Assembly (NCBI GenBank): GCA_009787445.1
Contig: WRFX01000009.1
Coordinates: forward strand, 1 to 32,991
DNA length: 32,991 bases
From: Chitinivibrionia bacterium
GTDB taxonomy: Bacteria; Fibrobacterota; Chitinivibrionia; Chitinivibrionales; Chitinivibrionaceae
Direction: 5' to 3'
The position numbers and the translations under genes were made by a program. Position 1 is the first letter of the stretch. Each line of letters begins with the position of its first letter. The notes below the pieces were generated by a model. That model was not told the origin of the DNA and searched no databases. It saw only the letters and a program-made list of their open reading frames with translations. Below, in pieces: positions 21,161-32,991 of this stretch.

Positions 21161-22504
21161 ATGAAGAAATATCTTTTATTCGCCGCTTTTATATTTTCAG
21201 GAATTTGTTTCGCGCAGGAATTGTCTATCGAAGAACAGTTGAAACTTTTGGGCGCCGACGATTTTTTCGTTAGCGACGTTTCGCCCCAGCGCGATACGAA
21301 TGCCGCAAAAACTTCGCAAGAAGACGAAAACGCGCAAAATTCGGATAGTTTAAGTGTTTTTGACGGCGATTCCGTCAGCGCGGGAAACGTTCCCGCAGAA
21401 TCGGGCGGGCGCAGACAGCCGATGTCTTCGTCTTCCGCTATGATGCCGGGAGGAGGACAAGGTAGACCCGCCGCGACAATAGTAGATACGACAATAAGCA
21501 ACTGTCGCGAAATTGACGGCAAAGAAATCTGCGACACGACGTTTTCTATAGTTTCCGCCGCGTCCGCAGAAAAAATTTCGATTTTTGACACGGCAAGCGT
21601 CGCGGAAGAGCGCACAATAGATTTTCATCGCAATTTGTCGCAATATCGTTCGCCGCAAAAGGCGTTTTTGTATTCGCTTTTACTTCCGGGATTTGGACAG
21701 GCGTACAACAAAAATTATTGGCGAACGGGATTATACGCCGCCGTAGAAATAGGAATGATAACGGGCGCGATTTATTTTAGAAAAGACGCGACTAAAATTC
21801 GCAAAGAAGCCGAAACTTTTGCCGAAACGCATTTTGATACTACTCAATTGAGAGATTTTTATAAAAAAATTACCGACAAAGGATATGCTAATTTTCCCGA
21901 TATTATTCGCGATATGGAAGGATTTACGATAGGCAATTTAATTTTCGGTGGTGGTCTCGGCGGAATATTTTCGGACGAATACGAAGTTCTTGTAAACCCC
22001 GAAACGAATGATACAACGTACATTCTTGACCCGAACGGTTACGCTTACAAAGAATATATGAAACAATTTAGCGAAGATTTTTACGGCAACATAAAAAGTT
22101 ATTACGCTACGCAGGGCTGGAAAGACGCAGAATTTAGCGACCCAAATTTTGACAAATACGATATAGATACCGTAGGTTTTCCACCTTATGTAATAATTAA
22201 CGGACAAAGAGGATTTGGAATTTCAAGCAATCAGCGGCATTTCATATCGCTTATGGACGAAAGCGCAAAACAGGGACGGCGCGGTTCGGCTTTTGTTGTG
22301 GGAATATTCGTAAATCACATTGCTTCGGCAATGGACGCTTTTCTTTCGACGATAATTCATAATCGCAAACTTTTGCGAGACGAAAAAGGCGAATCGCCCA
22401 CGAAAACCGACGAAATTTTAAGCAAAATTTCCATAGAAAGCGATATGTATTTAGACAAAAACGGCGAAATTACTTCAAAATTAGGTTTTGTATGGCGTTT
22501 TTAA
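21161..22504 (+). CDS. DUF5683-like exported envelope protein
   Basis: The 447-residue product has a signal peptide (MKKYLLFAAFIFSGICFA), an acidic Ser/Asp-rich and Gly/Pro-containing low-complexity stretch (about 25-110), and then the DUF5683 core: SPQKAFLYSLLLPGFGQAYN, NYWRTGLYAAVEIGMITGAIYF. It ends in LGFVWRF, a possible outer-membrane-type C-terminus. DUF5683 proteins are frequent in Bacteroidota and Fibrobacterota with no defined activity. GAGGG precedes ATG 21161. It overlaps the next gene by 13 bases, and that gene also has a short DUF5683-like core, so the pair probably acts together in the envelope. Confidence 0.75.
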   Translation: MKKYLLFAAFIFSGICFAQELSIEEQLKLLGADDFFVSDVSPQRDTNAAKTSQEDENAQNSDSLSVFDGDSVSAGNVPAESGGRRQPMSSSSAMMPGGGQGRPAATIVDTTISNCREIDGKEICDTTFSIVSAASAEKISIFDTASVAEERTIDFHRNLSQYRSPQKAFLYSLLLPGFGQAYNKNYWRTGLYAAVEIGMITGAIYFRKDATKIRKEAETFAETHFDTTQLRDFYKKITDKGYANFPDIIRDMEGFTIGNLIFGGGLGGIFSDEYEVLVNPETNDTTYILDPNGYAYKEYMKQFSEDFYGNIKSYYATQGWKDAEFSDPNFDKYDIDTVGFPPYVIINGQRGFGISSNQRHFISLMDESAKQGRRGSAFVVGIFVNHIASAMDAFLSTIIHNRKLLRDEKGESPTKTDEILSKISIESDMYLDKNGEITSKLGFVWRF

Positions 22505-23232
22505 CGGAAAAAAAAATATCTATTTTAATTTTATTTTTCTGCGTTTTTGCGTTTTCGCAGGAAATTTCGCTCGATTTGCAAAATATTCAAAAGACAAAGC
22601 AGGAAGAAGTTTCGCTCGATTTGCAAAATATCCGAAAAACAAAGGAAGAATCGGGCGCAAAAGCGGATTGGACTGCAAGCGGACTTAATTTAGTTATGCC
22701 GGGAATAGGACATTTTTATTTGCGCGAAAAAAAAACGGCGATTTCGTTTTTGTCCGCCGATATTGTTCTTTTAAGCGCGTTTTTTTATACGAATTACACT
22801 TCCGTTCAGCGTTCCAAATCGTCTTTGGGATACGCAAAAATTTACGCGCACACGCAAAGTTCTCGTCCATACGACGACGTATATTGGAGTTATTTGGGCA
22901 ATAAAAGTTTTATGCGCGCGCAAGATTTAAACTGGGCTTTTCAAAATAATCGCGAATTTGAAAAAATGTATATTGACGAAAGCGATTTTTGGCATTGGGA
23001 CAGCGAAGAAAACAGAGACGAATACGCGGATATGCGACAAAAAGCGCAATATTTCAAAACGGCTTCTACGTTAGTTTTGGGTTCGCTTGCGTTAAATCGG
23101 CTTGCGGCGTTTGTTTCGGCGAGAGTCGCGACAAAAAAATATAACGAAAAAATGTTTTCCGCGCCAATAATCGCTCCGACCGTTGATACGGAAACAAAGT
23201 CCGTCGGCGTTTCGTTTTTATTCGGAATTTAG
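22492..23232 (+). CDS. Small DUF5683-like envelope protein, overlapping the upstream gene
   Basis: This 246-residue protein has a signal peptide (ISILILFFCVFAFSQ), then a duplicated 15-residue segment (see repeat), then LNLVMPGIGHFYLREKKTAI, which parallels the LLPGFGQAYN segment of the preceding protein, followed by hydrophobic helices. It ends in SVGVSFLFGI, a strand-like terminus. The start lies inside the upstream gene (13-base overlap) with no strong Shine-Dalgarno, indicating translational coupling. The pair looks like a diverged duplication with a shared role at the envelope. Function unknown. Confidence 0.7.
   Translation: MAFLTEKKISILILFFCVFAFSQEISLDLQNIQKTKQEEVSLDLQNIRKTKEESGAKADWTASGLNLVMPGIGHFYLREKKTAISFLSADIVLLSAFFYTNYTSVQRSKSSLGYAKIYAHTQSSRPYDDVYWSYLGNKSFMRAQDLNWAFQNNREFEKMYIDESDFWHWDSEENRDEYADMRQKAQYFKTASTLVLGSLALNRLAAFVSARVATKKYNEKMFSAPIIAPTVDTETKSVGVSFLFGI
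22561..22650 (+). repeat. 45-bp tandem duplication in the small DUF5683-like gene
   Basis: Units 22561-22605 and 22606-22650 encode EISLDLQNIQKTKQE and EVSLDLQNIRKTKEE. The core TTTCGCTCGATTTGCAAAAT is identical in both. The duplication is in frame, just after the signal peptide, so it lengthens the exported N-terminus. Confidence 0.85.
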
Positions 23233-23255
23233 AAAAAAAGACAATATTTTATCTA

Positions 23256-24869
23256 TTATTTAACCGATTTTAACGCGGACATCACTGATTTTTTGCTTAC
23301 GACGTCGTAAAAAATGACGGGATTTGTAAAATCGTTTCCGTCAAAAACAGCCATAAACGGAATACTTTTTGAATTTAATTTTTTTTGCAACTCTTGCGCG
23401 GGAATATTTTCGTTTGTCAGGTCTGCGCTTAAAGCCAAAATGTTTTTTTCGCGCAAAATTCGTTTAATTTCTTTGGTTTCATAAACCGTAATTTTGTTAT
23501 ATTTACAATTTAAGCACCATTTCGCCGTAAATTCTATTATTACGCTTTGTCCGTTTTTTTGCGCTTTTTCAAATAATTCGGGAGAAAATTCCGTCCAAAC
23601 AAGATTTTTTTTGTCTTTTTGAAAAAAATTGTCCAAATGCGCCGAAAAAAGCAAAAAAACCGCAAATAAAAGCAAAATTACGCCTAAAATTCGTTTTATA
23701 ATTATGGAATATTTTCCAATTTTTTGCGAAATTTTTACGCCGCCAAAAATACTTAACAAAATATACGGTGCGCTCATTCCGATGCCTACCGCAGAAAAAA
23801 CCGCAAAAACCGCGTTTGCGGAATTGTCTATCAAAGCCCAAGTGAAAATCGCTCCCAAAAAAGGTCCCGAACACGGAGTCGCCAAAATTGTCGCGCAAAT
23901 TCCGCGAATAAAATTTCCCAAAAGCGCGCTTTTGTCCTGTTTTCTTTCTAAATTTGCAATTTTTTGGCTTGGCGAAAGCGTAAATATGTCAAAAAGAAAA
24001 AGTGCGCCGATTATCATAAATATGGATAGCGCAGTTATGAAAATAGGATTTTGAAACTGCTGCCCCCACCAAATTTTTGTTTGAACGGCGACTATTGCCA
24101 AAATCAAAAACACAAAAATTATTCCCGCCGAAAAAGATAAACTTCTTAAAAACGCCGTTTTTTTGCTTACGTTTTGCGAAAACGACAAAATTTTTATTCC
24201 CAAAACAGGCAAAACGCAAGGCATAAAGTTTAAAATTATTCCCGCAATAAACGCAAAAAATAACGCCGAAAAAAGCGTAAAATTTCGTCTATTTTCTTTA
24301 ATTGAAAATTCCAAAAATTCGCTCGATTCTTCGTCTGAAAATAACGGAAAATTTTCGGCGTTTGCGTAAATTTTCATTAGTTTTTCGCTAAATTTTGCGT
24401 CGTTTGGCGATATTTCAAGTGTCTTAAAAAATGGTACGCACGAAACATCACAATAAACGCCGCTTATTTCTATAAATGTGGACGAAAAATTTTCTCGCAA
24501 AAAAGCAAGAAAAACAATCGCTTCGTTTTCCCAAGCCCAAACCCACTGGTCAGGCGGCTCGTCAAGCGGAAGAAACTTTTTTGGAACGCTTTTTTTTGCG
24601 AATAATATATTATCCGTTTCGTCAAAATTTATACTTAAATTTTTGCCGACTCCCGGACCTTTCGGGTTAGAATAAAGGTGATAATCCTGCGGAATATTTA
24701 TAGTGATTGCGGCTATTATAGTGTCGTCATTATTAAAAAAAGACACTTCAAACGAAAGTTCGTTTTCGTCGGAAAAATTAAAAGATTCAAAAAACGCGAA
24801 TACCGTCGAAAAACAACAAAAAAGCGCAAGAAAAATAATTTTCTGCGCTTTAATTTTTGCGTTTTTCAT
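23256..24869 (-). CDS. dsbD: Thiol:disulfide interchange protein DsbD
   Basis: The 537-residue protein has all three DsbD parts. After a signal peptide comes a periplasmic alpha domain with YCDVSC (cysteines near 140 and 144), then eight or so membrane helices with the redox pair in NFMPCVLP (near 218) and ATPCSGPFLG (near 333), and finally a thioredoxin-like gamma domain with CLNC (near 452-455). DsbD carries electrons from cytoplasmic thioredoxin to periplasmic reductases and cytochrome maturation. I chose ATG 24869; the TTG two codons earlier is weaker, and neither has a clear Shine-Dalgarno. It starts 27 bases after rpmA with no terminator between, so it is probably read through from the ribosomal operon. 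Confidence 0.93.
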   Translation of the reverse strand: MKNAKIKAQKIIFLALFCCFSTVFAFFESFNFSDENELSFEVSFFNNDDTIIAAITINIPQDYHLYSNPKGPGVGKNLSINFDETDNILFAKKSVPKKFLPLDEPPDQWVWAWENEAIVFLAFLRENFSSTFIEISGVYCDVSCVPFFKTLEISPNDAKFSEKLMKIYANAENFPLFSDEESSEFLEFSIKENRRNFTLFSALFFAFIAGIILNFMPCVLPVLGIKILSFSQNVSKKTAFLRSLSFSAGIIFVFLILAIVAVQTKIWWGQQFQNPIFITALSIFMIIGALFLFDIFTLSPSQKIANLERKQDKSALLGNFIRGICATILATPCSGPFLGAIFTWALIDNSANAVFAVFSAVGIGMSAPYILLSIFGGVKISQKIGKYSIIIKRILGVILLLFAVFLLFSAHLDNFFQKDKKNLVWTEFSPELFEKAQKNGQSVIIEFTAKWCLNCKYNKITVYETKEIKRILREKNILALSADLTNENIPAQELQKKLNSKSIPFMAVFDGNDFTNPVIFYDVVSKKSVMSALKSVK

Positions 24870-24896
24870 AAACAAATTTTTTAACTTACGCGGGTT

Positions 24897-25151
24897 TTAC
24901 GCGGGGATAATTCTCGCGTATTTTCTGTCGTCGGCTTTCTTAAAGAAATCAACTTTTCCCGTTATTTTGGCAAAAAGCGTATGGTCTCTGCCCATTCCTA
25001 CGTTTTGTCCCGCGTGAATTTTTGTTCCGCGCTGACGAATAATAATGCTTCCCGCGCTTATCAATTCGCCCGCGTATTCTTTAACGCCCAAACGTTTCGC
25101 GTTGCTGTCGCGACCGTTTTTTGTGCTTCCCTGACCTTTTTTATGCGCCAT
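24897..25151 (-). CDS. rpmA: 50S ribosomal protein L27
   Basis: The 84-residue product is a clear L27: [20 protein letters not shown] at the start and [16 protein letters not shown] and [14 protein letters not shown] in the body. L27 reaches the peptidyl-transferase centre with its N-terminus. The mature sequence begins at Ala2 with no Firmicutes-type N-terminal extension. GGAGAA lies upstream of ATG 25151, 11 bases after the rplU stop, the usual rplU-rpmA order. Confidence 0.98.
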
Positions 25152-25162
25152 AAATATTCTCC

Positions 25163-25477
25163 TTACGCCGCTTTAATCGACGTTATTTTAATTTTCGTAA
25201 AATCCTGACGATGCCCGTTTCTTCTTTGATAGTCCTTTCTTCTGTGTTTTTTGACTACCAAAATTTTTTTTGCGCGTCCGTGTTCTACAATTTCCGCTTT
25301 AACGACAGCGCCCGCAATTTCGGGCGTTCCGACGGTAGTTTTTTTGCCGTCGCTTAAAAGAAGAACGCCGCCAAGCGTTATCTCTTGTCCGACTTTTCCT
25401 TCTACAAGCGGAATGTCAAGCGTTTCGCCTTCGCAAACTTTGTATTGAAATCCGCCTTGTTTTACAACTGAAACCAT
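25163..25477 (-). CDS. rplU: 50S ribosomal protein L21
   Basis: At 104 residues with [15 protein letters not shown] at the N-terminus, [15 protein letters not shown] in the middle and [21 protein letters not shown] at the end, this is L21, a 23S-rRNA-binding protein of the large subunit. I chose ATG 25477 (MVSVV) rather than an upstream start at 25519, since family members begin here and GGAGAAAC lies upstream. It lies 88 bases downstream of rng, as in many bacteria, and 11 bases before rpmA. Confidence 0.97.
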
Positions 25478-25565
25478 TTTTAAGTTTCTCCTTATATCCA
25501 AAAATCTTTTAATTTTCAAAAATTACACGCAAAAAATATTATTTCGCCGCGCAAAAAAGCAAGTA

Positions 25566-27263
25566 CTACAAATGTTTTTCCGTAATATTTTCGTCTTGCT
25601 CGCCCGAATGTATTTCAAATTCGTCTTGTTCCAAACGCGGAGATATTTCAAAAACCAACTTTATTTTGTGATTTTTTTCTAATTGTTCTTTCAAATCGTT
25701 TCTTTCTACGTAATCGAAAAGCGATTTTGAAACCAAAATTTTTATTCTCGACGACTTTCCATCTTCCGCAGCCGCTCTGTGAAGCCAGCGGTCAATTTTG
25801 GAAGCGACGGATTTCGTAGAAAATATTCTTCCAAGACCATTGCACGACGGGCAAATTTCCGTCATAAGTTCGTTAATTCCCGCTCTAACGCGCTTTCTCG
25901 TCATTTCCATAAGTCCAAAACGCGACAAATCGCCGCAAGTTGCGCTTGTGGAATCGTTTTTGAGAAGTTCGCGCATTTTTTGCTCCAAAGCGGTTCTGTT
26001 TTCCGCTTTTTTCATATCGATAAAGTCCACGACAATAATTCCGCCGATGTCGCGCAGTCGAAGTTGACGGGCAATTTCTTTTGCCGCTTCCATATTTACG
26101 GCAAAAACCGTGTCTTCAAGCGTGTTTTCGGAATTGTTTCGTCCCGAATTTACGTCGATGGCAAGTAGCGCTTCGGTTTTGTCGAAATACAAATATCCGC
26201 CGCTTTTAAGCCAAATTTTACGTCTGTGCGATTTATCCAAATCGCGTTCTATATCGTAAGCGTCAAAAAGCGGCGCGCTCTGCTTATAAAGCGTAACGCG
26301 ATTTTTCATTTCGGGCGCGATTTTATTCAAATACGACAAAATTTCCTGATAATCCTGCTTATCGTCGACAATAACTTCTTCCGTGTCTTCCGTAAATAAA
26401 TTGCGAATTGAAGACATTACTATGTCCTGCTCTTTGTAGAGTAGGCACGGTTCGTCGCCTTCTATGGATTTTCGCTGAATTTCATCCCAATCGCCGACAA
26501 GTTGTTTAAGTTCGTTGTAAATCAAATCCTCGTCGACGTCCAAACCTATTGTGCGCACAATGCAACCCATTCCTTCGGGAAGCATATCGCGAAGGATTTT
26601 TTTGAGACGTTTGCGCTCGCGTTTGCCGTGACTCCTTTTGGAAATTCCGATATTGTTGTTATCGGGAACGAGAACGGTAAAACGTCCCGCAAGCGAAATT
26701 TTCGTCGTAACTTTCGGACTTTTGTCGCCAATGGGTTCTTTGGAAATCTGAACAAGAATTTCCTGTCCTTCTTCGAGCAGATTTTCTATCGCAAATTCGT
26801 TAAAAGGTACTTCTTCCTGCGCGACTTCGCCTTCAACTTCGCTTTTTTCGCCTTCGATTTCTTTCTCTATTTTGTCGATATTGGCTTTGTCGCCTTTGTT
26901 TTTTCCGTTTTTACGCTTATTTTTGCCTTTATTTTTGTCGTTTTTGTTTTCGATTTCGGCGACTTTGTCTATTTTTTCGTTTTTCTCGTCAACGTTTTCT
27001 ATCTCGCCTGTTTCGGTCGGCAATTTCGGGACAAGGTCAAGTTCTATGTCGTTTACATTCAAAAACGCATTTTTGCTTATTCCTATGTCTATAAAAGCCG
27101 ATTGAATGCTGGGAACTATCTTTTCTATTCTGCCGCGATAGATGTTTCCCAAAATTCGGCAATCGTCGGGTTGTTCGACAATATATTCAACCACTTTATT
27201 TTCTTCAAGAACAGCCACTCGCTTTTGCGTAGCGGTCGAACTGAACAATAATTTTTTTATCAT
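25566..27263 (-). CDS. rng: Ribonuclease E/G family protein
   Basis: The 565-residue enzyme shows the RNase E/G core: an S1 domain (GNIYRGRIEKIVPSIQSAFIDIG, about 39-61), the catalytic DNase-I-like domain with AIDVNSGRN and VVDFIDMKKAE (the two metal-binding aspartates), and the Zn-link CPSCNGLGR. It lacks the long C-terminal scaffold of E. coli RNase E, so it is closer to RNase G. Unusually, residues about 80-155, within the S1 domain, are a Lys/Glu/Asn-rich low-complexity insertion (NKGKNKRKNGKNKGDK and similar) much longer than in E. coli RNase G. RNase G matures 16S rRNA and degrades mRNA. The gene precedes rplU-rpmA. A purine-rich GAGAGAG stands upstream of ATG 27263. Confidence 0.93.
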   Translation of the reverse strand: MIKKLLFSSTATQKRVAVLEENKVVEYIVEQPDDCRILGNIYRGRIEKIVPSIQSAFIDIGISKNAFLNVNDIELDLVPKLPTETGEIENVDEKNEKIDKVAEIENKNDKNKGKNKRKNGKNKGDKANIDKIEKEIEGEKSEVEGEVAQEEVPFNEFAIENLLEEGQEILVQISKEPIGDKSPKVTTKISLAGRFTVLVPDNNNIGISKRSHGKRERKRLKKILRDMLPEGMGCIVRTIGLDVDEDLIYNELKQLVGDWDEIQRKSIEGDEPCLLYKEQDIVMSSIRNLFTEDTEEVIVDDKQDYQEILSYLNKIAPEMKNRVTLYKQSAPLFDAYDIERDLDKSHRRKIWLKSGGYLYFDKTEALLAIDVNSGRNNSENTLEDTVFAVNMEAAKEIARQLRLRDIGGIIVVDFIDMKKAENRTALEQKMRELLKNDSTSATCGDLSRFGLMEMTRKRVRAGINELMTEICPSCNGLGRIFSTKSVASKIDRWLHRAAAEDGKSSRIKILVSKSLFDYVERNDLKEQLEKNHKIKLVFEISPRLEQDEFEIHSGEQDENITEKHL

Positions 27264-27308
27264 TAAAAAAACTCTCTCTTTTCGTCATTAAAACAATTTC
27301 TTTTTTAC

Positions 27309-27350
27309 AAAAAAGAATAAAAATTTCGGCAAAAATAACTTTTGCCGAAA
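27309..27350 (-). terminator. Intrinsic terminator after the CsgG/LPP20-domain gene
   Basis: A perfect 11-bp stem, TTTCGGCAAAA (27324-27334) with TTTTGCCGAAA (27340-27350), closes a five-base loop. On the minus strand it is followed by a T-rich run. It lies just beyond the stop at 27388 and would separate that gene from rng. Confidence 0.85.
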
Positions 27351-27387
27351 AGATAATGCGAAAAAATATTAAAAGACGCCTTAATTT

Positions 27388-29283
27388 TTATTTGCAACAA
27401 TTACTTCCTATCGCGTTAGGCGCTTCTGGAAGGTTCAATTTTGCCACAAGTTTTTGAGCGATGTCTCTAAAATCATAAACATTTTTTCCGTTTGCCGAAA
27501 CAGAAGCGACAATTTGCGACGTTTTAATATCGACAATTCTTACGTCCGCTTCTATTAAGTTTTGCGCTCTCGTTAATGTTCCGACGACAGCCCATTCGGC
27601 TCCCATAATTTTCGCCTGATTTATTTCTTGCGCTTCGGTAAGTTGTTCGCCGTCTTCGTTTGTTTCGCCCGCGTTTGTTTTTGTTTCGCTATATTTTAGT
27701 TCGCTTTGCGAAAGTTCAAGCATTTGACGTTCCAAAACGATAAACGCATTCGTATTTACAAGCGCGGTCGTAAGCATCGCCGAAAGCGCTTCAAAATTAG
27801 AATACGAATACCATTGTCCTTCAAATCCGCTGTGAATAAGCGGGAAAACCGCGATTTTCTTCTTTTCGCCCTGAACAAAAGCCGCCGCTTTTTGACTTTG
27901 CGCTTCTTCGTAATTTTTTACCGCTTCGTTAATATTTGTCATAGTTGCGCCGAGTTGTATCTTTTTTACTCCGTCGGCGACCGCGCCCAATCTGTCGTTA
28001 GCCGCGCCCAAATTGGTAACGCTTCCCGAATAAATTTGTTTGCCTTTGTCGTCGGATATGGAAATTTGCGCCGTAACGCTTGAGCGCACAAATGTTCTTT
28101 GCTTTGAAAGTCCTTCAATATTTTCTTTTGGATTGTCGGAAATTTCAACTGAAACCTTAAAACAACCGCAATCGTCGTTTAATATTCCGTGACTTGAAAG
28201 CATTTCTTTTGCCGCAGATTCTATTGCCGCCGCGCCTTTTCTCAAATCGTTAGAAAGAGAAATCGAAATTTGCGCGGGCAAATCGCGAATTTTTACCGTA
28301 TACGAAAACGACGCGCTTGCGGAATTTTTTACGCCTTCCAAATCGACTTTCGCCGTATATTTATAAGTTCCGCGCAAAGTCGGCGCTTTTGAGTCCAAAA
28401 AGAAATAAACTGAACCGTTTTCGTCCGAAAAAGCGGTCGCCGTCTTTTTGTTTTTGTCGTCGAAAAGCGAAATAGAAAGATTTTCTATCGCTTGTCCGTC
28501 AGCCGTAACTTTTGCCGAAAGCGGTTCGGTAGAAATTTCTCCCGCAAAAACCGTTTGTTTGTCGCCGCCGCTCGCTACGATTTTTATGGAATTGAGCAAA
28601 TTCGCGAGTTTTCCGTCAATATCTGCGCGGGAAACGGGAATTTCTTCTTTTGCCGTAAGCGCGGTCGCGGCGGAAAGCAAAAGTCGTTCGCTTTGAATTG
28701 CCAAAATTTTCTCTTTCGCCGAGTTCAAAAGCGAAATTGCCAAAGCAATCTTTTTGTCGCTAATCGCTTTATCCGCTTGAGCGTTTATAGTTTTCAATTC
28801 GTTTTGCAATTCCGTGATTTTTGTTTTTTGAAAAGAAATAAACTTTTCTTTTTCTAAAATTGCAAACGCATAATAGTTTTCTCCGCGAACCGAAGTCGCA
28901 AGAATTTCCACTCCCGTAATGTCGCCGACGACGGAAATTCTGTTTCTCGCGCTAAAAAGCGAAGAATCCGTCGAAGCGTTATTCGACGTGATAGAAAATT
29001 CTTTGGAAATCTGCTCCGATTTCACGGTTGTAGAAATTTGTCTGCGAATTTCGATGGTGGCGTTTCTGCGCGCCGAATTTTCATCGTTTCCCATACCGAC
29101 TGCGGTAAAATACTTGTTTACGGGATATCTTATCATTTGCCCGCTTTCGACCCATTCGTCGCCCATTTGCCGCGACGGGGCAGGTTTTGTCGCCGCGTTT
29201 ACGGATTGTTTGTTTGAAGCCGCGCTAACGGATTGCGCCGCAATGATGGCAGTTGCCAGTAAGATAGCCGAAAATTTTTTCAT
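27388..29283 (-). CDS. Exported protein with LPP20-like and CsgG-like domains
   Basis: The 631-residue product has a signal peptide (ILLATAIIAAQSVSA) without a lipobox. Next is an LPP20-type segment (YFTAVGMGNDENSARRNATIEIRRQ) and a helical Gln/Lys-rich linker. An Ig-like middle region follows (about 240-340: EPLSAKVTADGQAIENLSIS, SDENGSVYFFLD). The C-terminal CsgG-like domain starts KKIAVFPLIHSG and includes NAFIVLERQMLELSQSE and AKIMGAEWAVVGTLTR. LPP20 and CsgG-like domains occur in outer-membrane and periplasmic proteins of several phyla; CsgG itself is the curli secretion pore, but pore formation cannot be assumed without the lipidated N-terminus. ATG 29283 is preceded by AAGGAG; an upstream TTG-started form is unlikely. 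The last residues are CCK. Single-gene unit with its own terminator. Confidence 0.75.
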   Translation of the reverse strand: MKKFSAILLATAIIAAQSVSAASNKQSVNAATKPAPSRQMGDEWVESGQMIRYPVNKYFTAVGMGNDENSARRNATIEIRRQISTTVKSEQISKEFSITSNNASTDSSLFSARNRISVVGDITGVEILATSVRGENYYAFAILEKEKFISFQKTKITELQNELKTINAQADKAISDKKIALAISLLNSAKEKILAIQSERLLLSAATALTAKEEIPVSRADIDGKLANLLNSIKIVASGGDKQTVFAGEISTEPLSAKVTADGQAIENLSISLFDDKNKKTATAFSDENGSVYFFLDSKAPTLRGTYKYTAKVDLEGVKNSASASFSYTVKIRDLPAQISISLSNDLRKGAAAIESAAKEMLSSHGILNDDCGCFKVSVEISDNPKENIEGLSKQRTFVRSSVTAQISISDDKGKQIYSGSVTNLGAANDRLGAVADGVKKIQLGATMTNINEAVKNYEEAQSQKAAAFVQGEKKKIAVFPLIHSGFEGQWYSYSNFEALSAMLTTALVNTNAFIVLERQMLELSQSELKYSETKTNAGETNEDGEQLTEAQEINQAKIMGAEWAVVGTLTRAQNLIEADVRIVDIKTSQIVASVSANGKNVYDFRDIAQKLVAKLNLPEAPNAIGSNCCK

Positions 29284-29353
29284 AAATACGCTCCTTAAAA
29301 GTTGATTTTGGGGGTAAAATAATATATTGCGCGAGTAAAAAAGTAAAAATTGC

Positions 29354-29444
29354 AAATTATTTCATCCCTTTTTATACGCTTATTTGATATTCGGTATTTT
29401 ATTTTAGTAACAAAGAAACCTAAAAATCGCGTTTTTATTTTATT
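29354..29444. repeat. Direct repeat, left copy, flanking the Rpn-like nuclease gene
   Basis: This 91-bp copy pairs with 30402-30493. The last 65 bp (29380-29444) are identical to 30429-30493; the first part differs by two substitutions and one base in a T-run. The shared block includes GATATTCGGTATTTTA and AGTAACAAAGAAACC and ends with a small AT hairpin around TCGCG. The copy lies in the 228-base gap between the CsgG/LPP20 gene and the nuclease gene. Confidence 0.93.
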
Positions 29445-29511
29445 TGGTTAATTTGTTTTAGAAACTAAATGTTTTGGCAAATATTATATTTATAATGAAA
29501 AGGAGCAAAAA

Positions 29512-30390
29512 ATGATAATAGCAAACCCTATATACGACGCGACGTTCAAACGGCTTTTGGAAAACGATAACGTCGCAAAATTTCTTATAGGCACAATTTT
29601 AGATTGCAAAATAATATCTCTTGAACCATATATTCAAGAGCGTACCAAATTTGATAAAATAACGGGGCAACTTACGCTTTACCGAAAAGATTTTTCCGCG
29701 ACGATAGAAACCAAAGAAGAAGGCGTAAAAAGAGTAATAATAGAATTGCAAAAAGCAAAACAATTAAGCGACATTTATCGTTTTAGAGAATATTTGGGCG
29801 CGGAATACGTAAATTCAAAACTTCCGATAATAGCAATTTACATTTTGGGCTTTAATTTATCTGTAGACGCCCCCGCTTTTGTCGCTTATCCCGAATGTAA
29901 AGATTTACGGACAAAAGAAAAATTAAACGTTCACGATAGTTTTGTCGAACATTTGACTCACAAGTCGTATTTTGTGCAAACCTGCAAGATAAAACAGAAT
30001 TTAAATACCGAATTGGATACGCTTTTATCCGTATTTGAGCAAGAAAACTTTGTATCTTCGGACAAAACTACAAAAGATTTTCCCGTTGACACTAACTATC
30101 CTGAAATAAAAGAATTGTTGGATATTTTACATTACGTCGCGGTGGATAAGGACGCGCGCAAAGAATTGGACGAAGAATTATATTATCAGCGATATGTAGA
30201 ACAAACATTCGGCGAAAAAGACAAAGAACTTGAAAAAAACAAAAAAACTATTGAAACTCTGCTTCAAGAGAAAAAAGATTTTGAAAATAGAAACAAAGCA
30301 AGCGCAAAAAAAATGAAACAACGCGGAATGTCCGCAGAAGAAATATCCGAATTTACAGGACTTTCCAAGAAAGAAATAGAAAATTTATAA
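29512..30390 (+). CDS. Rpn/transposase-like PD-(D/E)XK nuclease family protein
   Basis: The 292-residue protein opens with NPIYDATFKRLLEND, the standard start of the Rpn/transposase_31-like PD-(D/E)XK family, followed by YRKDFSATIE and RVIIELQKAKQ, which supply the D and E-x-Q of the active site, and RFREYLGAEYV. E. coli Rpn proteins are DNA nucleases that promote RecA-independent recombination; whether this relative acts so is untested. The C-terminal 80 residues are a Lys/Glu coiled coil (FGEKDKELEKNKK) ending in a helix-turn-helix-like GMSAEEISEFTGLSKKEIENL tail. AAGGAG precedes ATG 29512. Direct repeats lie on both sides. Two more nuclease genes of this general type lie at the right end of the window. 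Confidence 0.8.
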   Translation: MIIANPIYDATFKRLLENDNVAKFLIGTILDCKIISLEPYIQERTKFDKITGQLTLYRKDFSATIETKEEGVKRVIIELQKAKQLSDIYRFREYLGAEYVNSKLPIIAIYILGFNLSVDAPAFVAYPECKDLRTKEKLNVHDSFVEHLTHKSYFVQTCKIKQNLNTELDTLLSVFEQENFVSSDKTTKDFPVDTNYPEIKELLDILHYVAVDKDARKELDEELYYQRYVEQTFGEKDKELEKNKKTIETLLQEKKDFENRNKASAKKMKQRGMSAEEISEFTGLSKKEIENL

Positions 30391-30401
30391 AATATCAAAA
30401 A

Positions 30402-30493
30402 AAATTATTTCATCACTTTTTTATACGTTTATTTGATATTCGGTATTTTATTTTAGTAACAAAGAAACCTAAAAATCGCGTTTTTATTTTATT
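30402..30493. repeat. Direct repeat, right copy, flanking the Rpn-like nuclease gene
   Basis: Matches 29354-29444 in the same orientation, with 65 bp of perfect identity at 30429-30493. It begins 11 bases after the nuclease stop and ends 2 bases past the stop codon (30489-30491, minus strand) of the 58-codon gene, so that gene's last codon and stop fall in or at the repeat edge. Confidence 0.93.
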
Positions 30494-30665
30494 GAGATAA
30501 TTTAATTGATTGAGTATTTTTTTGTTTAGCGCATTCCTGTCGTTGCGCTACCAAATAATTAAAGAGCGCGTCTACGGTTGGAAATTCCGCGTCAATTTCA
30601 TCTTTAATCGCTCGCGTACCCTTTATACAATCCCAACGAAAAGTATCGTCGTTATTCATCATCAT
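30489..30665 (-). CDS. Small partner gene of the PIN-domain protein (58 codons)
   Basis: Reading the minus strand from three consecutive ATG codons (30665, 30662, 30659) gives a 56- to 58-residue product: NNDDTFRWDCIKGTRAIKDE, then IDAEFPTVDALFNYLVAQRQ and a Lys/Gln-rich tail. It overlaps the PIN gene end by 8 to 14 bases, so the two are translationally coupled. Small proteins with an N-terminal F-x-x-C-I/V-type segment are often found next to PIN-domain toxins and are suspected antitoxins; this assignment rests on position and size. It would be the downstream gene, the reverse of the usual vapBC order. The stop codon lies within the right direct repeat. Confidence 0.6.
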   Translation of the reverse strand: MMMNNDDTFRWDCIKGTRAIKDEIDAEFPTVDALFNYLVAQRQECAKQKNTQSIKLSQ

Positions 30666-31116
30666 AAACCCCCATATCTTTTGGCGAACGAATTTCTAAT
30701 TGTTTGTATCCGTTTTTTATGTTAATGGAATTATAACCTTTAATTCGCTCTACATTAACAATGTGTTTAAAATTCCAACTTACTAAAAAATCAACGCCGT
30801 TAATTGTTGCCGTCGCTATATGAACGCAATCGTCCGTACTTGTTGCGCCGACTACTTTTTCTTTTATGTATTCACCCGCTAAATCCTTACATTCCTGCGA
30901 TACCTCTACTAACTGATATTTTATGTCTTCCAAAAGATTTTTTACGTTTTCGGGCGCCTTTTTCAGTTCGTTTTTCGTTAGTTCAGAGATAAAAACATTA
31001 TATTTTCCCGATTTTATTTTTTCAAAAAGCAAGCGGGTATCCTGCATAAATATATCGTCGTAGTATCCGCCGATTACAGACGTGTCCAAATATAAGGATG
31101 ATTTTTTATTTATCAT
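30652..31116 (-). CDS. PIN-domain ribonuclease, VapC-like toxin candidate
   Basis: The 154-residue protein has the PIN acidic set: D11 in YLDTSVIGGYYDD, E45 in FISELTKNE, D95/D96 in TSTDDCVHIATA, and WNFKHIV near 114-120 where the fourth site lies. Many PIN proteins of this form are toxins that cut tRNA or rRNA, though solitary PIN proteins also exist. ATG 31116 is chosen because GAGGGA lies upstream; an earlier in-frame start at 31140 would put the conserved strand eight residues further in. A small gene overlaps its 3' end. It is divergent from the pilin gene across 285 bases. Confidence 0.85.
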   Translation of the reverse strand: MINKKSSLYLDTSVIGGYYDDIFMQDTRLLFEKIKSGKYNVFISELTKNELKKAPENVKNLLEDIKYQLVEVSQECKDLAGEYIKEKVVGATSTDDCVHIATATINGVDFLVSWNFKHIVNVERIKGYNSINIKNGYKQLEIRSPKDMGVYDDE

Positions 31117-31227
31117 TTTTCCCTCTCGTTTCTCTTTCAATTTATAATTAAAATACTATATTGCCGCATACAAATTTCAGTGTTTTTCAATCTCCCCAAA
31201 AAATTTTCACTTTTTTCACTTTTACTA

Positions 31228-31256
31228 TTGACATTTTAAAAAAAATGTTGCATAAT
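31228..31256 (+). promoter_or_regulatory. Strong sigma70 promoter for the pilin gene
   Basis: TTGACA (31228-31233) and CATAAT (31251-31256) are separated by exactly 17 bases: perfect -35, one mismatch in -10. Transcription would start near 31263, giving a leader of about 139 bases before the pilin ATG. Confidence 0.8.
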
Positions 31257-31272
31257 ATATATGAAAGGGAAC

Positions 31273-31317
31273 AATGCGGCGAATTTTTATAAAAAGAACC
31301 GCGTTTTTAAATTTTTT
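31273..31317 (+). promoter_or_regulatory. Terminator-like hairpin in the pilin leader, possible attenuator or stability element
   Basis: AATGCGG (31273-31279) pairs with CCGCGTT (31299-31305), with one T-G wobble. An inner TTTTT/AAAAA stem lies between, and TTTTTAAATTTTTT follows directly. The element starts about ten bases after the predicted transcription start. It resembles a weak intrinsic terminator, or a 5' hairpin that protects the mRNA. I found no known riboswitch core in the leader. Confidence 0.45.
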
Positions 31318-31325
31318 GTTAATTT

Positions 31326-31336
31326 AAAGGAGGAAA
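31326..31336 (+). promoter_or_regulatory. Orphan Shine-Dalgarno-like sequence in the pilin leader
   Basis: AAAGGAGGAAA is a near-perfect ribosome-binding sequence but lies 66 bases upstream of the pilin ATG, which has its own AAAGGAG at 31390-31396. No ATG, GTG or TTG follows at a usable distance; only a CTG at 31340 opens a six-codon frame. It may be a ribosome standby site or a relic. Confidence 0.4.
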
Positions 31337-31401
31337 TAACTGCAAGCAGCAGAATTCTAATAGTAGAGTAACTTGTTCAACATTTAACAAAGGAGTATGT
31401 T

Positions 31402-31881
31402 ATGAGCAAGAAAAACGGTTTCACACTGGTTGAACTGATGGTTGTTATTGTAATCATCGGTGTTTTGGCGGCGGTTGCCATCCCTAAAATGATGGCGGCG
31501 ACGAATAAGGCGAAAGCGGGCGAGGGTCCGCAGTTGTTACGTTCCATAGCAAGTATGGAAGCGGCGTACAAGGCAGAAAACGACACGTACATCTCTGCAG
31601 ATGCAGCGGAAAAAGGTCCCGCAGAAGGAGCGTGGAAAGGGCTTGGTTTTGACCAAAATCCTTTTTCAAGGTATTTTACGTTTTCCGTTACGGGTGGAGC
31701 AACCTACAAACCTGATGGCGATTATGCAGTGAGTGAGTATAAGAATGAATTTCTTGCTACTGCTGCGTTGAGCGCTGGACTTGGCGATGCGGTTGCAGGT
31801 ACAGACAATCTTACTATCAATGAAAAAGATGAAAGAGTAGGAACTGATAATATCAAGAAATTAGTTCCGAATTGGAAGTAA
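31402..31881 (+). CDS. Type IV pilin / pseudopilin-like major subunit
   Basis: The 159-residue protein begins with a class III prepilin signal, MSKKNG|FTLVELMVVIVII, with the cleavage Gly, Phe+1 and Glu+5 that prepilin peptidase and pilus assembly need. The helix continues to AAVAIPKMM. The globular part is small, has no cysteine pair and is rich in Ala, Gly and charged residues, ending NIKKLVPNWK. The short leader and MAATNKAKAGEGPQ stretch resemble pilins of Fibrobacter and relatives. AAAGGAG precedes the ATG. A near-consensus promoter and a strong terminator bracket the gene, so it is a highly expressed single-gene unit. Codon use is less A/T-biased than in the neighbouring genes, as expected for high expression. 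No pilB, pilC, pilD or pilT is in the window. Confidence 0.92.
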   Translation: MSKKNGFTLVELMVVIVIIGVLAAVAIPKMMAATNKAKAGEGPQLLRSIASMEAAYKAENDTYISADAAEKGPAEGAWKGLGFDQNPFSRYFTFSVTGGATYKPDGDYAVSEYKNEFLATAALSAGLGDAVAGTDNLTINEKDERVGTDNIKKLVPNWK

Positions 31882-31910
31882 GCGTTCAGGTTTTTGCTTT
31901 GAATTTTTGA

Positions 31911-31950
31911 AAAAAGAGAGTCGGAGAGGTTTCTTCGGCTCTCTTTTTTT
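31911..31950 (+). terminator. Intrinsic terminator after the pilin gene
   Basis: A 12-bp stem, AGAGAGTCGGAG (31915-31926) with CTTCGGCTCTCT (31933-31944) and two G-T wobbles, encloses loop AGGTTT and is followed by a T tract to 31950. An A tract on the other side means it could also stop minus-strand transcripts from the nuclease gene ending at 31964. Confidence 0.92.
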
Positions 31951-31963
31951 GGGGGTTATTTTT

Positions 31964-32788
31964 TCATTGCGCGAATGCAAATTTCTTTTTGGCTTCTTCG
32001 AGGGTGTGTCCGCTTTCTAGAAAAGCAAATATTTCCTGCCTTTCTTCTTGTCTTCCTTCTTGTCTCCATTCTTTGGCTCTACCTGTTTTAATCGCCCAAT
32101 CGTCCAAAAATTTCATCGCTTTTCTCTCTTCTATCGTCATCTCGTCTACCTCCTTCATTATATCTATATTCGCCGTCCACAGCGAAAACATTACTTCTCT
32201 TAACAAATCGTTATCGCGAGTATCCTCAAATTTTTTTACTATTTCTATTCCCTCCGGAATAGTCCAGTTGTCCCGTATAGAACTAATAAGCCAATCGCTT
32301 TGCGCAAGTTCGGAATTAACCGCCAACTGCATTGCGGGAATTTTACCCGACGACTTAATATAATAAATTCCACTATGCTTTGCCGATACTATTTTATATT
32401 TTCTTTCATTTTTTAATATCTCAAACAATTTTTCAGGTCTCTTTACCGTAACAAACGTTATAGTTGCATCGTCAAATTTTACAGAATTTTTTGACAAATA
32501 TGCGTAAAAATAACTCAAAACTCTGTCAAACGCTTCTATATTTAAAATATCCGTCGGTCCTTTGAACTCCAAAATATTATGTTTTCTGAAAAATTTCATT
32601 ACCGCGTTTTTAATAACAACGTCTTCCAAAAGTTTTATAACTACAATATCGATTCTCATCGGTTCTTTGTATAATTGATACTCGAAAATTATTTCCGTTT
32701 TGTAGTCGCGAAGAATAAATTCAACTATTTTTACAAACCATTGCGTCCATTTGTTACGCTGTTTTCTTTGTTTTGTTTCTTTTTTCAT
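31964..32788 (-). CDS. PD-(D/E)XK nuclease-like protein of the Rpn/transposase-related type
   Basis: The 274-residue protein has MRIDIVVIK followed by HNILEFKGPTDILNIEAFDR, the D and ExK of a PD-(D/E)XK nuclease fold, and ends in WAIKTGRAKEWRQEGRQEERQEIFAFLESGHTLEEA-type basic/acidic helices, a common tail in these families. It is related in fold, but not closely in sequence, to the nuclease at 29512. ATG 32788 is chosen because AAAGG lies upstream; a TTG six codons earlier is less likely. It follows another nuclease-family gene by 23 bases on the same strand, so the two are probably one operon. Function unknown; mobile or recombination-linked roles are suspected from family context. Confidence 0.7.
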   Translation of the reverse strand: MKKETKQRKQRNKWTQWFVKIVEFILRDYKTEIIFEYQLYKEPMRIDIVVIKLLEDVVIKNAVMKFFRKHNILEFKGPTDILNIEAFDRVLSYFYAYLSKNSVKFDDATITFVTVKRPEKLFEILKNERKYKIVSAKHSGIYYIKSSGKIPAMQLAVNSELAQSDWLISSIRDNWTIPEGIEIVKKFEDTRDNDLLREVMFSLWTANIDIMKEVDEMTIEERKAMKFLDDWAIKTGRAKEWRQEGRQEERQEIFAFLESGHTLEEAKKKFAFAQ

Positions 32789-32811
32789 ATTAAAACCTTT
32801 GCGCAAAAAAA

Positions 32812-32991
32812 TTATTTTTTCATTTTTTCTATTTGCTTTTTCAAGTTTTCTATTTCTTTGTTTTTTTCTGCAAGTTCTTTGTCCTTTTCAAAGAGTTTTT
32901 TGTCTTTTTCCGCAAGTTTTCTGTCCTTTTCGCCAAACATTCCTTCCATCGCTTCCTGATAATATTCTTCCTTGTCCAACTCATCCCGCGC
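32812..32991 (-). CDS. C-terminal 59 residues of an Rpn-like nuclease family protein, cut by the window edge
   Basis: The minus-strand frame is open to the last base of the window and ends TAA at 32812. RDELDKEEYYQEAMEGMFGEKD matches the corresponding part of the 29512 protein (RKELDEELYYQRYVEQTFGE), so this is the tail of a paralogue. The rest is a Lys/Glu coiled coil made of four seven-residue repeats (EKDRKLA, EKDKKLF, EKDKELA, EKNKEIE). Only 60 codons including the stop are visible. It is followed after 23 bases by the next nuclease gene. Confidence 0.75.
   Translation of the reverse strand, partial: ARDELDKEEYYQEAMEGMFGEKDRKLAEKDKKLFEKDKELAEKNKEIENLKKQIEKMKK
32848..32931 (-). repeat. 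Four 21-bp units encoding a coiled-coil heptad
   Basis: Four in-frame 21-bp units of the form GAAAARGACARARAACTY-NN-like sequence encode the EKD(R/K)(K/E)L(A/F) heptads of the partial nuclease tail. Units are similar but not identical, so recent expansion is possible but not certain. Confidence 0.7.

Follow-up and report, generated by a model that had tools for sequence, protein, structure and literature searches.

An accessory gene for a Rpn-like nuclease lies between two long direct repeats, and the locus is the scar of a local duplication around that gene. The DNA analysed here (the window, 32,991 nucleotides in all) comes from contig C9 of the draft genome G000 (2.69 Mb, 231 contigs), which belongs to an uncultured gut-type bacterium. 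The reading that we favour for the repeat, designated R, has in our judgement an even chance of being correct: R would be local target DNA duplicated when the nuclease gene was inserted, that is, the mark of an insertion with a long target duplication of variable length.

The two copies of R occupy window positions 29354–29455 and 30402–30503, both on the forward strand, and align over 102 columns with 94.1% identity (E ~1e-38). They share an exact core of 65 nt (29380–29444 and 30429–30493, spacing 1049) with 0/65 differences, mismatches being confined to the edges of R. Exact direct repeats were never longer than 17 nt in 100 random sequences of matched dinucleotide composition. The initial annotation had reported long direct repeats with 65 identical bp, situated outside the gene on both sides and in the same orientation, and this description holds: the left copy ends ~57 bases 5′ of the ATG and the right copy begins 11 bases 3′ of the stop. 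It had also placed the end of the right copy in the stop of the PIN gene. The right edge does extend over a stop codon and the last codons preceding it, but these belong to a 58-aa ORF positioned after the PIN gene (30489–30665, reverse strand; stop at 30489–30491), the PIN gene itself ending at 30652. Comparison with the second PIN module of the same island suggests a natural end for the 58-aa ORF, and R therefore did not truncate it. On the other side, left R is located in the upstream region of a gene for a CsgG/LPP20-type lipoprotein (csgG-like; 27388–29283, reverse strand), just upstream of its likely promoter. Both the csgG start and the small post-PIN ORF are intact beside R. No inverted repeat brackets the nuclease gene, and neither an integrase nor a transposase is encoded between the R copies.

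When the genome was searched with R, four strong places were obtained, two on C9 and two on contig C30. The copies on C30 were considered as a second locus and rejected: C30 is 100% identical to window positions 21454–32991 (11.5 kb) and runs past the right end of C9. As C30 is an overlapping duplicate of C9, the genome holds two R copies. The further copies of the 65-mer for which a genome search had been suggested were not found in the 2.69-Mb assembly beyond the C9/C30 overlap. R had no significant match over its length in 40 relatives, and an exact 36-mer used as a probe had no match in viral contigs. Other overlapping or duplicate contigs are present in the assembly (C8/C19 and C11/C107), and copy counts in this draft are inflated because of such contigs.

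The locus lies in an accessory island with many duplications. Its order is R, Rpn, R, small ORF plus PIN, pilin, 280-aa ORF, second Rpn-like gene, PIN, pilin and sigma factor. The PIN-domain gene (30652–31119, reverse strand) is one of many in the genome, with PIN matches below the curated cut-off, and the 58-aa ORF, antitoxin-like by position, is kept with PIN in paralogous modules. They are followed by a type IV pilin-like gene (31402–31881, forward strand), the second pilin lying further right on C30; a 280-aa ORF with no Pfam match (31964–32806, reverse strand), between the pilin and the second Rpn-like gene; and the 3′ end of this latter gene (272 aa; 32812–32991, reverse strand), which continues on C30 and is inverted relative to the first. 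The Rpn and PIN copies inside the island are inverted duplicates (72–74%). Reading on into C30, the distance between the csgG-like gene and the sigma-factor gene is ~5.8 kb. In the sister genome G001, the one other genome of the genus compared here, the RNase E/G, csgG-like and sigma-factor genes are consecutive, the last two 130 bp apart. The Rpn/PIN/pilin island is absent at this orthologous site as judged by gene order, the intergenic DNA being too diverged to align. The nuclease gene is accessory. The PIN gene and its small conserved downstream ORF form a multi-copy module (window 30489–31140 and contigs C4, C30, C77, C177 and C21), with tandem copies on C4.

The gene between the R copies (29512–30390, forward strand) encodes 292 aa, with a coiled coil and a short helix-turn-helix-like C-terminal tail, and is a putative PD-(D/E)XK nuclease gene. 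It is preceded by a core promoter-like motif, GGCAAATATTATATTTATAATG, and a ribosome-binding site (29473–29511), the sole flanking DNA common to its paralogs. No Pfam or NCBIfam family matched the product above cut-off, and PF12784 misses it, though detecting other genes of the same genome. Because no curated Rpn or PDDEXK_2 model matches, the gene is named Rpn-like only. Among 72,556 plasmids, homologs were confined to proteins annotated as Rpn or PD-(D/E)XK transposase (24–25% identity across 99% of the length, E 3e-3 to 1e-2). The predicted structure is of low confidence (pLDDT 60); its best Foldseek matches include nuclease structures such as CinB, ACE1, cap-snatching endonucleases and MspJI, all at E 0.02 or above. 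With moderate confidence the product may be described as a Rpn-like nuclease, a prediction that agrees with the invariant residues of the alignment and with the weak PD-(D/E)XK fold matches. No methyltransferase accompanies the Rpn-like nuclease; the cargo is not a restriction-modification gene. Roughly a dozen paralogs, complete or broken, are present in G000; G001 has two, and a small number of other genomes from the order have 2–11 each. When contigs were searched with the protein sequence, a single relative turned up, in a Chitinispirillales MAG, and no repeats flank it. Contigs C2, C41, C34, C131 and C157 break off within Rpn-like genes. This would be expected if the assembly had failed at near-identical copies, and the true Rpn copy number may be higher than counted.

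We compared the extent of the homology among these paralogs with the position of R. It is confined to ~29473–30391, i.e., to the promoter motif, the ribosome-binding site and the ORF. The paralog on C114 has 90.6% DNA identity, yet its flanks diverge immediately outside this interval. Thus, the common unit starts ~15–20 bp after left R and ends ~10 bp before right R. The remaining complete Rpn loci that were tested, both in G000 and in relatives, had no direct repeats on both sides within 0.8–1 kb, and the idea that R generally flanks Rpn genes was rejected. To judge from these alignments, R belongs to the site and not to the nuclease gene's own unit. As the paralogs share the ORF and the core promoter and not the flanking R, a role of R as a general end of a Rpn cassette or as a Rpn substrate is unsupported.

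A scan for intergenic direct repeats 0.2–6 kb apart, covering ~1.7 of the 2.7 Mb of G000, recovered the window R pair and other repeat pairs besides. The cleanest parallel is at C13:27947–28602, where a YafQ toxin-antitoxin operon (PF15738, E 2e-31) is enclosed by two perfect direct repeats of 64 bp that consist of upstream DNA from a neighbouring ABC gene; in G001, a PIN ORF stands before the orthologous ABC gene in place of the YafQ operon. In G001 itself (L271, 15289–16791), ispG and ssb are separated by two hypothetical genes; on either side of this pair there are 76-bp repeats, 93% identical, which span the promoter-like motifs of both ispG and ssb. The corresponding genes of G000 (C12, 14259–15948) are directly divergent, ~150 bp apart and with no insert. 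By gene order this is an empty site, found for the ispG–ssb case only. A similar, more diverged pair in G001 (70 bp, 80%) surrounds an 86-aa gene. Repeat lengths thus vary in the genus (64, 76 and 102 bp), and their sequences are unrelated. With a YafQ operon and hypothetical genes as non-Rpn cargo between long repeats, the cargo is not always Rpn. Other pairs were left out of the comparison: the 45-bp repeats on C28 include the last codons of an apparent second cargo gene and were unusable to separate the models, and lower-identity pairs on C15, C47, C81 and C32, several of which bracket methylase, MNT-HEPN-like or YhcG genes, were set aside as partly promoter-like.

We infer for the window locus a single insertion event, with a break or template switch as its route. 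The ancestral site would have consisted of ~90–100 bp of intergenic DNA between the csgG-like gene and the PIN module. Following a break or template switch at this target, a gene-sized segment, namely the bare nuclease gene with its ORF and core promoter, would have been copied in, and rejoining ~100 bp upstream of the departure point would have left the target stretch on both sides of the insert with the neighbours intact. Later RecA-dependent loss or tandem amplification of the nuclease gene through the R copies would be possible. Several observations argue for such an insertion: R occurs at a single site, the paralogs share only the unit delimited above, the neighbours are intact, csgG and the sigma-factor gene are adjacent in G001, and the same geometry is found elsewhere in the genus. 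The varying length and the unrelated sequences of the repeats are moreover unlike the product of a fixed-stagger transposase. Against it, most Rpn paralogs are without flanking repeats, which means either that this is not the usual way in which the family spreads or that the scars decay. Furthermore, a core with 0/65 differences between diverged edges fits one event followed by neutral drift only by chance, or if the copies were later homogenised.

A further argument against a simple insertion comes from a Rpn paralog on C31, close to which there are long repeats of 174 and 95 bp. This locus was considered as a second clean Rpn insertion and rejected upon comparing it with C63 and with itself. 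The regions C31:13298–17710 and C63:3634–4559 of G000 carry a plasmid-like backbone with ParA and a replication-initiator-like ORF, and on C31 this backbone is tandemly duplicated in the layout U-X-R1-cargo-R2 / U′-Rpn-R1′-cargo-R2′, Rpn having replaced most of gene X in the second half. The long repeats around the C31 paralog hence come from tandem duplication and replacement, and because of this case we hold our confidence in a simple insertion at the window locus to one half.

The same history, transferred to the window, is the main rival explanation, one that we regard as possible, if on the doubtful side. A local tandem duplication (e.g., of R plus the PIN module) would have been followed by replacement of the material between the R copies with the nuclease gene. 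In addition to C31, where the 174-bp and 95-bp repeats are the remains of such a process, this explanation can draw on the other internal duplications of the island, in which Rpn, PIN and pilin are each present twice, and on the right edge of left R, which resembles the end of the small post-PIN ORF (AAATTAACCAAATAA vs. AAATTATCTCAATAA). The literature on Rpn also favours tandem direct duplications for arrays (PMC10327210). However, no second PIN module or other gene remnant is recognisable between left R and the nuclease gene, and the clean YafQ and ispG–ssb cases require no replacement step. Among the options offered by the initial annotation, the footprint of an ancient tandem duplication comes closest, and it stands in so far as a duplication event took place around an accessory, multi-copy gene.

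The remaining explanations fare less well. One reading, in part already put forward by the initial annotation, takes the R copies for the places where a mobile or amplifiable nuclease cassette would recombine, through Campbell-type integration or excision as a circle; we consider it improbable. A layout of repeat, gene and repeat does allow homologous excision or amplification, and 65 identical bases may suffice for RecA. Nevertheless, R is found nowhere else in the genome and lacks the matches in relatives and viral contigs described above, no integrase or transposase gene separates its copies, and the Rpn paralogs, which have no two-sided repeats at the other complete loci tested, move without R. 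An equally low probability is given to R being a functional regulatory element (e.g., an operator or a terminator) that was duplicated and is kept on both sides by selection. The 65-base core, identical while the edges differ, and the position of left R next to the likely csgG promoter would suit such an element. R is, however, not found near other genes, and neither of its strands is predicted to form a stable RNA structure (z-scores −0.4 to 1.5).

Very improbable, in our view, is that the Rpn-like enzyme itself made long-stagger breaks from which the duplication resulted. The predicted PD-(D/E)XK-like fold, weak as the matches are, would be compatible with this, and RpnA has been reported to promote RecA-independent recombination (PMC5350276). 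But the same type of scar surrounds the YafQ operon and the hypothetical genes, without Rpn, most Rpn copies have no scars, and a 2023 study of Rpn argues against transposase activity (PMC10327210). The suggestion that R is a substrate of the Rpn enzyme is not supported in view of the same non-Rpn cases, in G000 and G001. The least probable proposal of all is that toxin nucleases of this genus, Rpn-like and others, spread by a dedicated route, through widely spaced nicks or breaks of their own making, the gene being inserted upon repair and the 60–100 bp between the cuts duplicated; if true, a toxin would thereby be mobile in the manner of a transposon with no transposase involved.

As to systems already described, the initial annotation had judged R far longer than a target-site duplication. 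This is correct for ordinary transposons, but target duplications of ~100 bp are described for restriction-modification genes in PMC3874152 and PMC1643837. According to these two papers and PMC3031569, some restriction-modification systems insert with long, variable target duplications on the order of 100 bp, the source given there being Nobusato et al. (2000, Gene 259:99). The resemblance to that mode lies in a selfish, toxic-type gene unlinked to a transposon and in ~100-bp direct repeats of local target DNA with variable length; the difference lies in the cargo, Rpn-like here and a YafQ operon or hypothetical genes elsewhere in the genus. The window locus is accordingly filed under long target duplication by the structure of its scar and not by its cargo. 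With a transposon target-site duplication it shares the presence of target sequence on both sides of the insert, but R is far longer than is typical of transposons, the repeat length varies between loci, and there are neither terminal inverted repeats nor a transposase.

The Rpn family (YhgA-like, recombination-promoting nuclease) has been described as scattered, multi-copy, single-gene units with patchy presence, a PD-(D/E)XK fold and a variable coiled-coil/C-terminal tail (PMC5350276; PMC10327210), and the window gene is similar in its distribution and tail and, tentatively, in its predicted fold. The 2023 study states that rpn genes are without target-site duplications or terminal inverted repeats (PMC10327210). 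Unlike the family as described there, the window copy has long direct repeats and no significant PDDEXK_2 or NCBIfam match, and the locus looks like an exception to the rule of no target duplications. Transposed genes of Arabidopsis (PMC2869330) are comparable in being non-transposon genes between repeats of host target DNA, with the same two competing explanations; they differ in that they are eukaryotic and that their repeats are often genic and tied to tandem arrays. The favoured mode of arrival is ordinary in kind, known before for restriction enzymes and reported absent for the Rpn family. It bears on the question by what means individual toxin, antitoxin and nuclease genes relocate when they have no transposase. 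A long target duplication at a rpn-like gene, together with the cleaner YafQ and ispG–ssb parallels, would link Rpn and toxin-antitoxin genes to the way in which restriction-modification systems insert, and a genus with several fresh scars is a place to study such insertion.

Some further observations concern the nuclease genes and their surroundings. The tail of the window gene (30303–30392, the last 30–35 codons, of the MKQRGMSAEEISEFTGLSKKEIENL type) has 76–87% DNA identity to the tails of other nuclease genes, L106, L107, L108, L109 and L110 (on C13, C31, C63, C84 and C77). The bodies of these genes cannot be aligned with the window nuclease, and profile comparison aligns just 34 residues, those of the tail, which appears from this comparison to be a module common to different nuclease families. 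Another Rpn paralog of G000, at C12:15957–16853 (L043, 3958–4854), starts ~25 bases downstream of a tRNA-Pro (cgg) gene encoded on that strand too, and is without the usual promoter motif. In the window, the promoter-like motif GCAAATAGTATTTTT is located at 29478–29493; it is also found a short distance before many start codons of G000 and gives rise to spurious short repeats.
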